Source of the DNA: Gemmataceae bacterium
Lineage (GTDB): Bacteria; Planctomycetota; Planctomycetia; Gemmatales; Gemmataceae
NCBI GenBank assembly: GCA_019752375.1
Contig: JAIEMG010000004.1
Span: forward strand, 1 to 64,000
Direction of reading: 5' to 3'
Length of the DNA: 64,000 nt
Shown here: positions 56,482 to 61,057 of the stretch, piece after piece
How positions within the stretch are numbered: position 1 is the stretch's first letter
Layout: each line of letters begins with the position of its first letter
Made by a program: the position numbers and the translations under genes
Notes under the pieces: generated by a model
The model's database searches: none
What the model was told of the DNA's origin: nothing
The model's input: only the letters and a program-made list of their open reading frames with translations

Positions 56482-56991
56482 ATGAATCAACTCTGGGCTC
56501 CCTGGCGGCTGTCCTATGTCACGACTGCGAAACTTCCGGCAGCGGAGGGCGATTGTTTCATTTGCCGCGGCCTTGCCGAGCAGGACGACCGCAAAAACCT
56601 GATCGCCCTGCGCACCCCCGGCAGCGTGGTGGTGCTCAATCGCTTCCCTTATAACAATGGCCATCTCCTCATCGCGCCCCGCGCCCACAAAGGCCGCCTC
56701 GACCAACTCGAGGCAGCCGAGGTCCTCGACACGCAACAGACCCTGACGCGCATGGTCGCCGTGCTCGATGAGCTGATGCATCCCGATGGCCACAACATCG
56801 GTCTGAACCTTGGCACCGCGGCCGGTGCAGGACTGCCGGGACACCTGCACTGGCACATCGTGCCGCGCTGGAACGGCGATACCAACTTCATGCCGGTGCT
56901 GTCCGATGTGAAGGTCATCGTGCAGTCATTGGACGCGCTGTACGATTTGCTGGCACAGCGACTGGCGGTGGGTGACAAGGTGACAAGGTGA
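56482..56991 (+). CDS. HIT-family nucleotide hydrolase, C-terminus rewritten by repeat
   Basis: A 169-residue HIT protein. The N-terminus MNQLWAPWRLSYV and CFICRG are typical of the Ap4A phosphorylase-like subgroup; GSVVVLNRFPYNNGHLLIAP and the triad HLHWHIVPRW (H-x-H-x-H) carry the catalytic histidine. The likely reaction is cleavage of dinucleoside polyphosphates or related phosphoramidates. The last codons, GDKVTR, come from the 8-bp tandem array at 56971-57034, which provides the stop; the original C-terminus seems to have been replaced. ATG 56482 is preferred; the frame to 56227 covers the upstream region shared with the divergent kinase. Confidence 0.88.
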   Translation: MNQLWAPWRLSYVTTAKLPAAEGDCFICRGLAEQDDRKNLIALRTPGSVVVLNRFPYNNGHLLIAPRAHKGRLDQLEAAEVLDTQQTLTRMVAVLDELMHPDGHNIGLNLGTAAGAGLPGHLHWHIVPRWNGDTNFMPVLSDVKVIVQSLDALYDLLAQRLAVGDKVTR

Positions 56992-57034
56992 CAAGGTGAC
57001 AAGGTGACAAGGTGACAAGGTGACAAGGTGACAA
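56971..57034. repeat. Tandem array of eight GGTGACAA units (left flank of cassette)
   Basis: Eight perfect 8-bp copies run from 56971 to 57034, followed by one degenerate unit GGTGAAAA whose GTG (57036) is the start codon of the four-helix-bundle gene. The array overlaps the HIT gene end and its stop codon. The reverse complement, TTGTCACC, forms a second array at 57431-57470 on the other side of the gene. Confidence 0.9.
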
Positions 57035-57035
57035 G

Positions 57036-57419
57036 GTGAAAATACTCTCTCATCGAGATCTCGAGGTCTATCGCAAGGCATTTGACACTGCGATGAACAT
57101 CTTCGAGCTGTCACGAGCATTCCCGAAAGAGGAGACGTATTCCCTGACCGACCAGATTCGAAGATCATCGCGTTCGGCGTGTGCCAATCTTGCGGAAGCC
57201 TGGCGCAAGCGGCGCTACCGGGCTGCATTTATCTCCAAGCTTTCCGACCTCGAAGGGGAGATGGCCGAAACTCAGGTTTGGATAGAGTTCGCGGTCAAAT
57301 CGGGCTACATGGATCGCGACAAGGCTGCCCATCTCTACCAAGGCTACGAAGAGATGCTCGGAACCATCTTTGGCATGATCACCCATCCTGAGACGTGGGT
57401 TATCGGCGGCGAGAAGTAA
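57036..57419 (+). CDS. Four-helix-bundle protein (23S rRNA intervening-sequence protein family)
   Basis: A 127-residue protein of the TIGR02436/IVP family: DLEVYRKAFDTAMNIFELSRAFPKEETYSLTDQIRRSSRSACANLAEAWRKR is cut here into its hallmark blocks DLEVYRKAFD, FPKEETYSLTDQIRRSS and ANLAEAW, followed by AFISKLSDLEGEMAETQVW. The fold is a basic four-helix bundle related to the Avd accessory protein of diversity-generating retroelements; its role is unknown. It starts with GTG in the last unit of the upstream octamer array. No reverse transcriptase or variable-repeat gene is near, so a DGR is not present. Confidence 0.85.
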   Translation: MKILSHRDLEVYRKAFDTAMNIFELSRAFPKEETYSLTDQIRRSSRSACANLAEAWRKRRYRAAFISKLSDLEGEMAETQVWIEFAVKSGYMDRDKAAHLYQGYEEMLGTIFGMITHPETWVIGGEK

Positions 57420-57430
57420 CTTCAGACGTA

Positions 57431-57470
57431 CCTTGTTACCTTGTCACCTTGTCACCTTGTCACCTTGTCC
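57431..57470. repeat. Inverse octamer array (right flank of cassette)
   Basis: Five tandem CCTTGTxx units (TTGTCACC register, the first and last slightly degenerate) lie 12-51 bp after the four-helix-bundle stop, inverted relative to the array at 56971. The dGTPase start follows 17 bp later. Confidence 0.85.
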
Positions 57471-57487: not shown

Positions 57488-58663
57488 ATGTCTACCGAGG
57501 AGAGCAACCTGTTCGAGCCGCCCGATTGGCTTGCCCGCGAAGACGAGGCGCTGGCGCCGTACGCCATGCGCACACGTCTGAGTCGGGGTCGGCGTCACCC
57601 CGAGGATCCGCATCCGTTTCGCACGCTTTACCAGCGCGACCGCGATCGGGTTGTCCATTCCACTGCGTTCCGCCGGTTGATGTACAAGACGCAGGTGCTC
57701 GTCAGCCAGACGAATGATCATCACCGCACGCGGCTGACGCATACGCTCGAAGTGGCTCAGATTAGCCGAACGGTTGCCCGGCAGCTCGGCCTCAACGAAG
57801 ACCTGACCGAAGCGATTGCACTGGCCCACGACCTTGGCCATCCCCCGTTTGGCCACGCCGGGGAAGCGGCCCTGGATGAGTGCATGAAGGAGCACGGTGG
57901 TTTCGAGCACAATCGCCATGGGTTGCGCATCGTCGAAGTACTCGAATACCGGTACGTCCAGTTTCCGGGCCTGAACCTCACGTGGGAAGTGCTCGAAGCG
58001 GCGGCCCTGCACAGCAAGCGGCGCGATACTCCTGAGGTCCGGGAGTTCAGCGGTGTCGGGCAGCCGCTCCTCGAAGCCCAGGTCGTGGACGCCGCCGACA
58101 GCCTGGCCTACGACACGCACGACATTGACGACGCGCTGAGCGTCGGACTGATCTCCTTCGCCGACCTGGACGAGGCCGCCTTCTGGCGCGAAGCGCTGGC
58201 GCGGGTGCGGGCGGAACATCCCGGCATCGGGCCGCTCCAGTTGCAGCCGGCGACGGTCCGCGCTCTGATCGACTGGCAAGTGCGCGACCTGTTGGAACAC
58301 ACCCGGCAGCGGCTCCGTCAGGAGAAGGTGAGCAGTGTTGCGGACGTGCGCCGGACGCGCGAGCCGGTCGTCGGCCCTGGTCCCGATGTGCAGGCGTTGA
58401 AGGCGGAGCTGGAGGACTTCCTGCGCCGGCGCGTCTATCGCCACCACCGCGTGCAGCGCATGGCGTCGAAGGGCAGCCACTTCGTTCGTGAGCTGTTTCA
58501 CCGCTTCTGCGCGGCGCCGCAACTGCTGCCGGCACGCTACGCCGTGCGGGCCTTTCAGGACGGCATGCTCCAGCGCACCGTGTGCGACTACCTCGCCGGC
58601 ATGACGGACCGCTATGCCCAGGACGAGTTCCTCAGGCTGTTCCAGCCGTATACAGACGTGTAG
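57488..58663 (+). CDS. dgt: dGTP triphosphohydrolase-like protein
   Basis: A 391-residue HD-domain dNTP triphosphohydrolase, which converts dNTP to deoxynucleoside and triphosphate. HD ligands are in RTRLTHTLEVAQISRT (H), IALAHDLGHPPFGHAGE (HD), and the later Asp in VVDAADSLAYDTHDIDDA. The opening DPHPFRTLYQRDRDRVVHSTAFRRLMYKTQV is the classical Dgt block. Length is that of the shorter Dgt group. ATG 57488 matches; GTG alternatives upstream run into the repeat array. Confidence 0.93.
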   Translation: MSTEESNLFEPPDWLAREDEALAPYAMRTRLSRGRRHPEDPHPFRTLYQRDRDRVVHSTAFRRLMYKTQVLVSQTNDHHRTRLTHTLEVAQISRTVARQLGLNEDLTEAIALAHDLGHPPFGHAGEAALDECMKEHGGFEHNRHGLRIVEVLEYRYVQFPGLNLTWEVLEAAALHSKRRDTPEVREFSGVGQPLLEAQVVDAADSLAYDTHDIDDALSVGLISFADLDEAAFWREALARVRAEHPGIGPLQLQPATVRALIDWQVRDLLEHTRQRLRQEKVSSVADVRRTREPVVGPGPDVQALKAELEDFLRRRVYRHHRVQRMASKGSHFVRELFHRFCAAPQLLPARYAVRAFQDGMLQRTVCDYLAGMTDRYAQDEFLRLFQPYTDV

Positions 58664-58696
58664 AATACCCGTCCGGAAGTGCCCAGATCACCAGGA

Positions 58697-58805
58697 TCAA
58701 TGCCGAATGACGACCGTCCAATGAATAGACAATTGTCCAATGCCCAAGCCCCGAATACGCACCGGCATCCCAGCGAGGGTTTGGGCTTGGTCCTTCGGCA
58801 TTGAT
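58697..58805. repeat. Nested imperfect inverted repeats
   Basis: Exact outer arms ATCAATGCCGAA (58697-58708) and its complement (58794-58805) enclose smaller inner arms (58744-58751 and 58783-58790). Related GAATGAC and GACGAATCAATG pieces recur at 60797-61050. Non-coding. Confidence 0.6.
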
Positions 58806-58852
58806 TAGACGTTAGTCATTCGACATTCGTCATTTTCGCTGGAGGCTCCCTC

Positions 58853-60794: not shown

Positions 60795-61057
60795 GTGAAT
60801 AGAATGACAAAGGACGAATCAATGGCCACTATCCAAGCTCCGGCTTGGGTACGCAGCAGAACTCGTCAGAGTTCCGAACGGCTGTCACACGGAAGTCTGG
60901 TGACTTCCGCTACACGGCACGCGACAGCCTGTTTGGCAATCTCTCTCGTTCCCAAGCTCCAAGCTGGAGCCCTGCTCCAGGTCATTGGGGATTGGTCATT
61001 GATTCGTCATTCGGGCTTCGTCCATCGTCATTCCGCACGGCACTCGTCATTCTCTTC

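Follow-up and report, generated by a model that had tools for sequence, protein, structure and literature searches.

REPIN/RAYT systems are small palindromic, non-autonomous elements that are dispersed between genes and tied to a single-gene partner. Proteins of the S23/IVP family have been structurally solved since 2006; to our knowledge they have no known function, and we know of no catalytic domain in them. The closest described system is the intervening sequence (IVS) of 23S rRNA genes. In Warrier 2016 (PMC4990558), the Coxiella IVS is presented as a selfish element of 428 nt, which is excised by RNase III and whose 28-bp stem bears an S23p gene in its loop. According to the same paper, 2 to 3 tandem heptamers precede the start codon, their number varying between strains, IVSs replace the tetraloops of 23S rRNA helices 9, 25, and 45, and S23p is probably not made in vivo in Coxiella. 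The idea that the S23p gene served mobility is credited there to Ralph and McClelland 1993. A solved relative is a homopentamer, as stated in that text and in the title of reference 25 in PMC10053308, a paper whose accessible portion also notes that PF05635 resembles Avd. PMC11637426, PMC10910872, and PMC5524665, in their accessible portions, merely name such proteins. Rehm 2015 (PMC4692102) reported G-rich heptamer tandem repeats of unknown function between genes of Xanthomonas and Nostoc; convergent pairs numbered 70 and 75 in the two Xanthomonas genomes counted and were few in their Nostoc strain. In the available text no link to such a gene family is made, and neither "four helix" nor "S23" appears. 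No literature joining the gene to tandem-repeat arms outside rRNA was found in a search that mostly did not cover subscription journals and is thus weak evidence of absence.

Here, we analysed a stretch of 64,000 nucleotides (the window), positions 1 to 64,000 of contig JAIEMG010000004.1 of a Gemmataceae bacterium. Between a HIT gene and a dGTPase-like gene it holds a block that is probably a one-gene transposon-like element, belonging to a widespread class that is related to the 23S rRNA IVS and dispersed between protein-coding genes. Its features are as follows.

56482 to 56991, plus strand: HIT gene, with its final codons and stop inside the left arm.
56971 to 57469, plus strand: whole cassette (left arm, four-helix gene, right arm).
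56971 to 57042, plus strand: left arm, 8 perfect GGTGACAA units (56971 to 57034) followed by GGTGAAAA (57035 to 57042).
57036 to 57419, plus strand: four-helix-bundle gene (PF05635/TIGR02436, S23/IVP family), GTG start, 127 aa.
57416 to 57432, plus strand: inner right end GTAACTTCAGACGTACC, overlapping the stop codon of the four-helix gene.
57430 to 57469, minus strand: right arm, inverted array (TTGTCACC)n with 3 perfect units, 1 variant unit, and 1 partial unit.
57488 to 58663, plus strand: dgt, the dGTPase-like gene, just downstream of the right arm.

The first-pass annotation had described eight perfect units leading into the gene and a GTG start within a ninth, degenerate unit; both are seen, as (GGTGACAA)8 at 56971 to 57034 and as the GTG at 57036 in GGTGAAAA. 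As a tandem array, the left side runs from 56971 to 57039. It had also counted five units of opposite orientation after the stop. TRF reports 5.0 copies, and the order is TTGTTACC, three perfect TTGTCACC, and a partial unit; since just 3 units are perfect, "five" is correct only when the variant and partial units are counted. The window contains 14 GGTGACAA units, 11 of them within the cassette arrays, against 1.5 expected, and at least 14 were reached in 0 of 100 shuffles.

The window protein matched PF05635 (E 1.6e-28) and TIGR02436 (90.4 bits, cut-off 24), and gave sub-threshold matches to the bAvd and Avd families. Its AlphaFold2 model (pLDDT 95.3) consists of four helices and superimposes on XCC0516 (2GSC; TM 0.82 by query length) and, more weakly, on Avd (4DWL; TM 0.77 by query and 0.90 by target length, Foldseek E 0.038). 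The model also matches the fold of one chain of the ribonucleoprotein of diversity-generating retroelements (DGRs). The kinship to Avd proposed in the first-pass annotation is upheld by the 4DWL fold match, the family score against DivGenRetAVD being only 28.4 bits, below the cut-off of 80. Pfam and NCBIfam scans of the window gene returned no transposase domain, only IVP/four-helix and the sub-threshold Avd matches, and no Y1 (HUH) transposase was found in the family scans. A block, DQIRRSSRSVCANLAEAWRKRRY, is nearly invariant across 30 proteins from six phyla, and Q40, R43, S47, N51, E54, and E78 are 93% to 100% conserved over a wider protein set. A dN/dS ratio was obtained for 13 of 19 pairs, dS being saturated or zero in the remaining 6; it was 0.03 to 0.15 in 12 pairs and 0.54 in one very close pair (dS 0.026). 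These ratios show that the four-helix protein is under purifying selection. In a tree of 74 proteins the phyla are mixed (17 changes versus the least possible 5) with few forks resolved, and the cyanobacterial rows can form one group.

A search for the dGTPase in 59 genomes, among them the window's own, gave 30 loci, one being that of the window and 29 belonging to relatives. HIT lies directly upstream of dgt in 18 of these 29, with gaps of -40 to 733 nt (below 100 nt in 15 of the 18); for the other 11 the HIT pair was not established within 1.5 kb of sequence. With the window protein as tblastn query, the four-helix gene was found at 0 of the 18 HIT-dgt loci, and a TIGR02436 search of the relatives' genomes likewise gave no match at those places. 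The orthologous loci thereby support the earlier suggestion that the block was inserted and do not show an ancestral, immobile block here; as judged from this comparison, the cassette is an insertion in this lineage. The HIT frame continues into the left array, ending in ...LAQRLAVGDKVTR*. The HIT protein of the 18 relatives terminates 1 to 19 residues past the aligned part, and therefore only the final few residues and the stop appear to have been replaced. The annotated replacement of the HIT C-terminus and stop by the array appears to hold for the stop and last few residues and not for a larger C-terminal part. By eye, the HIT-dgt gap of two relatives contains different repeat elements (L181 and L182; TGGGTGGCA units and a long palindrome), so that this gap has acquired repeats more than once.

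Each locus was examined for complementary arms by setting the 250 nt on the left side of the matched gene segment against the reverse complement of the 250 nt that follow the gene on the right; same-geometry pairs elsewhere in the same loci served as controls, and a score above 30 marked clear arms. Such scores were obtained for 138 of 169 testable loci versus 32 of 3380 controls; 10 of 179 loci were untestable because the flank was short or masked. The 138 comprise 67 of 73 loci from named genomes (the best 80 of 321 relatives found), 7 of 8 from the own genome, and 64 of 88 from relatives (part of the TIGR02436 matches in their genomes). Clear arms were absent in 31 of the 169. Arms were present in named loci of Cyanobacteriota (33 of 34), Chloroflexota (16 of 18), Planctomycetota (7 of 7), Armatimonadota (5 of 6), Acidobacteriota (3 of 4), and Verrucomicrobiota (3 of 4), with phyla assigned from record titles. 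The arm period among the 138 was 7 in 72, 8 in 57, 9 in 6, 6 in 2, and 10 in 1. When two duplicates (L223 = L087, L240 = L094) are left out, 136 of 167 distinct testable TIGR02436 loci carry complementary arms on both sides, with a unit that is not fixed and varies, mostly between 7 and 8 bp, by protein subfamily. The statement in the first-pass annotation that TIGR02436 genes stand beside such repeats in planctomycetes holds and proves broader, with named examples in six phyla. Its counter-case, the same gene elsewhere without arrays, does occur in part, at the 31 loci without clear arms, and array pairs without the gene exist too. The TIGR02436 gene is present in 50 of 99 genomes, own included, at 0 to 8 copies each. 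At gathering scores, Rfam gave 0 matches in 20 loci (L001 to L008, L005 being the window locus, and 12 relatives' loci). Phages gave no match, and plasmids were represented by 32 records, mostly cyanobacterial.

The arm unit goes with the protein subfamily. Arm similarity correlated with protein identity between genomes (Mantel r 0.63, 0 of 2000 permutations, in a run that still contained both duplicate loci), and also among own and relatives' loci only (r 0.40, 0 of 2000). Paralogues of one genome that are below 80% identical have unlike arms (mean cosine 0.05). Moreover, the eight genes of the own genome show the arm types GGTGACAA (two genes), GGTCAGT (just below threshold), GGGAATA, AGTTCCG, AAAATGC, CCCGTG, and AATGACG. 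Arms follow the protein, not the genome. The correlation is also expected from shared ancestry of whole cassettes, which amounts to the very point at issue, that arms and gene travel together. A seemingly significant mirrored order of unit variants in the two arms (84 of 98), found with arms that had been selected by their alignment, fell to 46 of 85 (p 0.52) with independently found arms and was rejected.

In the own genome, the arms also occur without the gene. The two-unit pattern GGTGACAAGGTGACAA has 201 matches genome-wide and its reversed control 0. Among 27 inspected GGTGACAA array loci, a part of the total, were 15 convergent array pairs with spacers of 23 to 390 nt and 0 divergent pairs; 2 of the convergent pairs enclose a four-helix gene and 13 do not. 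A single array was present in 12 of the 27 loci, 6 of these at a contig end. Contigs C19, C28, C75, C111, C120, C159, C178, C267, C276, and C371 of G000 start or end inside GGTGACAA arrays; the repeats therefore seem to break assembly, and draft genomes may miss gene-bearing copies. Both gene cassettes (that of the window and L040) have the core GTAACTTCAGRCGY at their inner right end, and this core adjoins an array in the gene-less L050, L056, L061 (both ends), and L063; none of three other fuzzy matches of it adjoins an array. With the own genome left out, the TIGR02436 gene was found in 10 of 12 genomes that have at least 5 array matches versus 39 of 86 others (p 0.028), a modest link between arrays and gene. 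The array-rich genomes lacking a TIGR02436 match are G011 (123 array matches, an 84%-complete MAG) and G036 (5).

A second type is defined by the AATGACGA-type end pattern, with 148 matches genome-wide and 0 for the control. On another contig, a four-helix gene is enclosed in cassette L008 by a perfect terminal inverted repeat, the 36-nt end AATGACGAATGACGAAGCCCGAATGACGAATCAATG on each side. We sampled 20 gene-less AATGACGA-type elements, picked for both ends being present, and the AATGACGAATGACGAAGCCCGAATGACGAATCAATG end with at most 3 substitutions stands on both sides in 18 of them. Seventeen of the 20 are 115 to 141 bp long and have related interiors (median identity 0.76 after trimming 22 nt per end, versus 0.57 shuffled), and their outer flanks are unlike (identity 0.58). 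On sequence grounds, the relation of L008 to the gene-less elements is that of an autonomous element to its MITEs, with no gene recognised apart from the four-helix gene. AGTGGTC is a third type, with 44 matches (control 0). Two further AATGACGA-type elements, L314 (512 bp) and L315 (585 bp), are of gene-cassette length and have no match to seven four-helix proteins of the own genome; they would hold either other cargo or decayed genes. The window itself contains a diverged gene-less AATGACGA-like inverted repeat pair at 58696 to 58834, just downstream of dgt, and a single 36-nt AATGACGA-type end with 2 substitutions at 60997 to 61032 on the minus strand, for which no clear partner end was found nearby on the plus strand. 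Hairpin loops as the insertion target find no support in the own genome, where the outer flanks are complementary in 1 of 20 AATGACGA-type elements and 0 of 11 GGTGACAA pairs at the 99th percentile of controls. Some Nostocales cassettes, however, are nested in a longer inverted repeat.

Cassettes were then compared across surroundings in 35 locus pairs with cassettes at least 84% identical and at least 400 nt of flank. Only the cassette was shared in 23 pairs (13 loci, 11 cyanobacterial and the own two, which are the well-documented cases), where the median distance from the matched gene segment to the end of homology was 44 nt on the left and 49 nt on the right; both flanks were shared in 7 pairs, and one side or a mixture in 5. 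Cassettes that are 84% to 98% identical thus lie in unrelated flanks, and three contigs of Nostoc sp. WHI (L137 to L139) carry an identical cassette with differing left flanks. Searching the flanks of five Nostocales cassettes in 20 genomes yielded 20 orthologous sites. Mojavia pulchra (L294) has an empty site where L125 has its cassette, the aligned flanks lying 6 nt apart; L295 and L296, from two further species, hold gene-less G-rich/C-rich arrays there around a 21-nt repeat, and these arrays are clearly complementary in L295, while L297, from a fourth species, holds another repeat. The gene is present in 0 of 4 other species at the L122 site; one of these, L298, has other cargo between outer arms that are clearly similar. 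The four-helix cassette was found in 0 of 3 other genomes at the L121 site and in 2 of 9 at the L133 site. The near-identical cassettes in unrelated flanks, together with the gene-less copies, support the mobile-element reading offered in the first-pass annotation, and the cassettes are likely mobile or formerly mobile one-gene elements with MITE-like derivatives.

By tblastx, 34 locus pairs from different genomes are similar on both flanks; their proteins are 40% to 76% identical in 16, unrelated in 7, and not computed in 11. The 16 pairs look vertically inherited, and many of this bacterial family's cassettes seem old and sedentary; an ancestral, immobile state, not seen at the window's HIT-dgt locus, partly holds elsewhere in the family. 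The 7 pairs combine unrelated proteins with unlike arms (e.g., L008/L156), as expected if one spot had received independent insertions or had its cassette replaced. The own genome's two GGTGACAA gene cassettes are dS 0.90 apart, and therefore neither is a recent copy of the other. No target duplication was evident by eye at the GGTGACAA pairs, whose outer units are degenerate, or at the single empty site. Some Nostocales cassettes (L127, L110, L137 to L139) are nested in or beside a longer, GGGAGCAATGCGATTTTGTGAGAT-like repeat, which is inverted in L127 and L137 to L139. L127 has a direct GGTGACAGG outside both ends, a possible target duplication, and by eye the left flank of L137 resembles part of a transposase gene.

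As RNA, the cassette is predicted to fold at -213.8 versus -170.6 kcal/mol for shuffled sequences (z -7.6, 0 of 100 shuffles), the arms forming a predicted long stem with the gene in the loop. At loci with callable neighbours, called by a simple script rather than a gene finder, the gene shares the strand of its upstream neighbour in 101 of 116 and of its downstream neighbour in 93 of 116, and it is in sense in 84 of 90 codirectional neighbour pairs. For ordinary genes of the same loci, the baseline is 169 of 247 among adjacent pairs and 30 of 36 among middle genes; upstream agreement exceeds it (p 0.0001), and agreement within codirectional pairs does not clearly do so (p 0.10). We do not take this strand bias as proof of RNA-level movement, because ordinary middle genes have nearly the same bias.

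Like the 23S rRNA IVS of Coxiella and Leptospira, the element has a single gene of this family in a stem-loop formed by inverted ends, a length of about 430 to 500 nt, and a sporadic occurrence; in Coxiella, too, tandem units (heptamers) stand ahead of the start codon. The S23/IVP gene in a stem loop is common to both, as judged from the PF05635 match and the predicted fold. Unlike IVSs, which sit in rRNA helices, these cassettes lie between protein genes, at up to 8 per genome among relatives, and have arms of 7- to 8-bp arrays as well as gene-less copies; the window cassette is located between HIT and dgt, with no Rfam match, and not inside an rRNA gene. REPIN/RAYT systems share the small dispersed palindromes with a single-gene partner, but here the partner is a four-helix protein with no transposase domain in the family scans. 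As in MITEs, terminal inverted repeats are shared (the 36-nt ends of L008 in 18 of 20 sampled gene-less elements, and the inner end common to both GGTGACAA gene cassettes and 4 gene-less loci), but Pfam and NCBIfam detect no known transposase in the window gene as partner. Avd of DGRs has the same four-helix fold and a weak family match, and differs in that the four-helix gene here is placed between its own repeat arms. Rehm 2015 (PMC4692102), in its available text, describes similar 7-bp G-rich tandem repeats, intergenic and in convergent pairs.

Three other explanations have to be weighed. Arms and gene might be separate, the inverted repeats dispersing anyway and the bare gene inserting in hairpin loops as a passenger, much as IVSs replace the tetraloops of helices 9, 25, and 45 (PMC4990558, available parts). 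We regard this as unlikely, although it is in keeping with the similar arms around other cargo in L298 at a site where 0 of 4 species have the gene, with the arms around other content in L295 at the L125 site, with arrays in two genomes that lack a TIGR02436 match, and with the nesting of some Nostocales cassettes in a longer inverted repeat. It does not account for a unit type that tracks the protein subfamily across genomes, nor for the L008 gene having the exact 36-nt end of its gene-less family, and the sequences outside gene-less elements show no complementarity (99th percentile of controls reached in 1 of 20 and 0 of 11).

Still less probable, in our judgement, is an ordinary host operon gene with slippage-prone regulatory repeats, for example with TRAP-like autoregulation via its own leader, and without mobility. 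Strong purifying selection, a start codon within the left arm, the 16 pairs with similar flanks over genera and related proteins, and a sense orientation near that of ordinary genes (84 of 90 versus 30 of 36, p 0.10) would suit such a gene, though upstream agreement exceeds the baseline (101 of 116 versus 169 of 247, p 0.0001). However, the presence is sporadic (50 of 99 genomes, 0 to 8 copies), near-identical cassettes stand in unrelated flanks, gene-less copies carry the same ends, and for 7 pairs of loci one and the same gene pair has, in different genera, unrelated proteins with unlike arms. A retroelement seems very improbable; in this reading a reverse transcriptase acting in trans would copy the hairpin RNA, and the Avd-like protein would have the accessory role that Avd has in DGRs. 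The fold matches to Avd and to a DGR ribonucleoprotein chain, the sense orientation, the stable predicted hairpin RNA, and four RVT_1 matches in the own genome (the three listed ones being on other contigs than the window cassette) are consistent with it. Yet reverse transcriptases showed no association with the gene, being present in 35 of 50 genomes that have it and in 32 of 49 that lack it (p 0.67), and a reverse transcriptase in trans was rejected on this ground; PF00078 is absent in 15 of the 50 gene-bearing genomes, some of them with 3 to 5 gene copies (G009, G013, G020, G026, G034, and G049).

We therefore return to the one-gene transposon-like element. It consists of an S23/IVP four-helix gene between two inverted arms of 7- to 8-bp tandem repeats, and these arms can form a stem whose loop contains the gene. 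The gene may be read through host operon transcription. That the protein recognises its own arms is a natural inference: by analogy with the homopentamer of the solved relative, a pentameric protein may bind the tandem units of its own arms protomer by protomer, in the form of an RNA hairpin or of single-stranded DNA. Binding would enable copying or insertion of the element with the help of host enzymes, and the protein may act in trans on gene-less arm pairs.

A wider reading, which we put forward tentatively and at somewhat less than an even chance, is that these cassettes form an element class of their own in at least six phyla, whose sole gene encodes a small pentameric protein without a known catalytic domain and in which each subfamily recognises its own 7- to 8-nt unit. 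The class would be the source of many short tandem-repeat families in planctomycetes, cyanobacteria, Chloroflexota, and perhaps Xanthomonas, and the rRNA IVSs would be its stranded ribosomal members. S23/IVP proteins, rRNA IVSs, and the heptamers of cyanobacteria and Xanthomonas are each unexplained, and they may be tied together by one testable rule, namely that the gene lies within arms of its own repeat type. This rule offers a source for the dispersed palindromes in many genomes and, possibly, a case of DNA movement without a known transposase.
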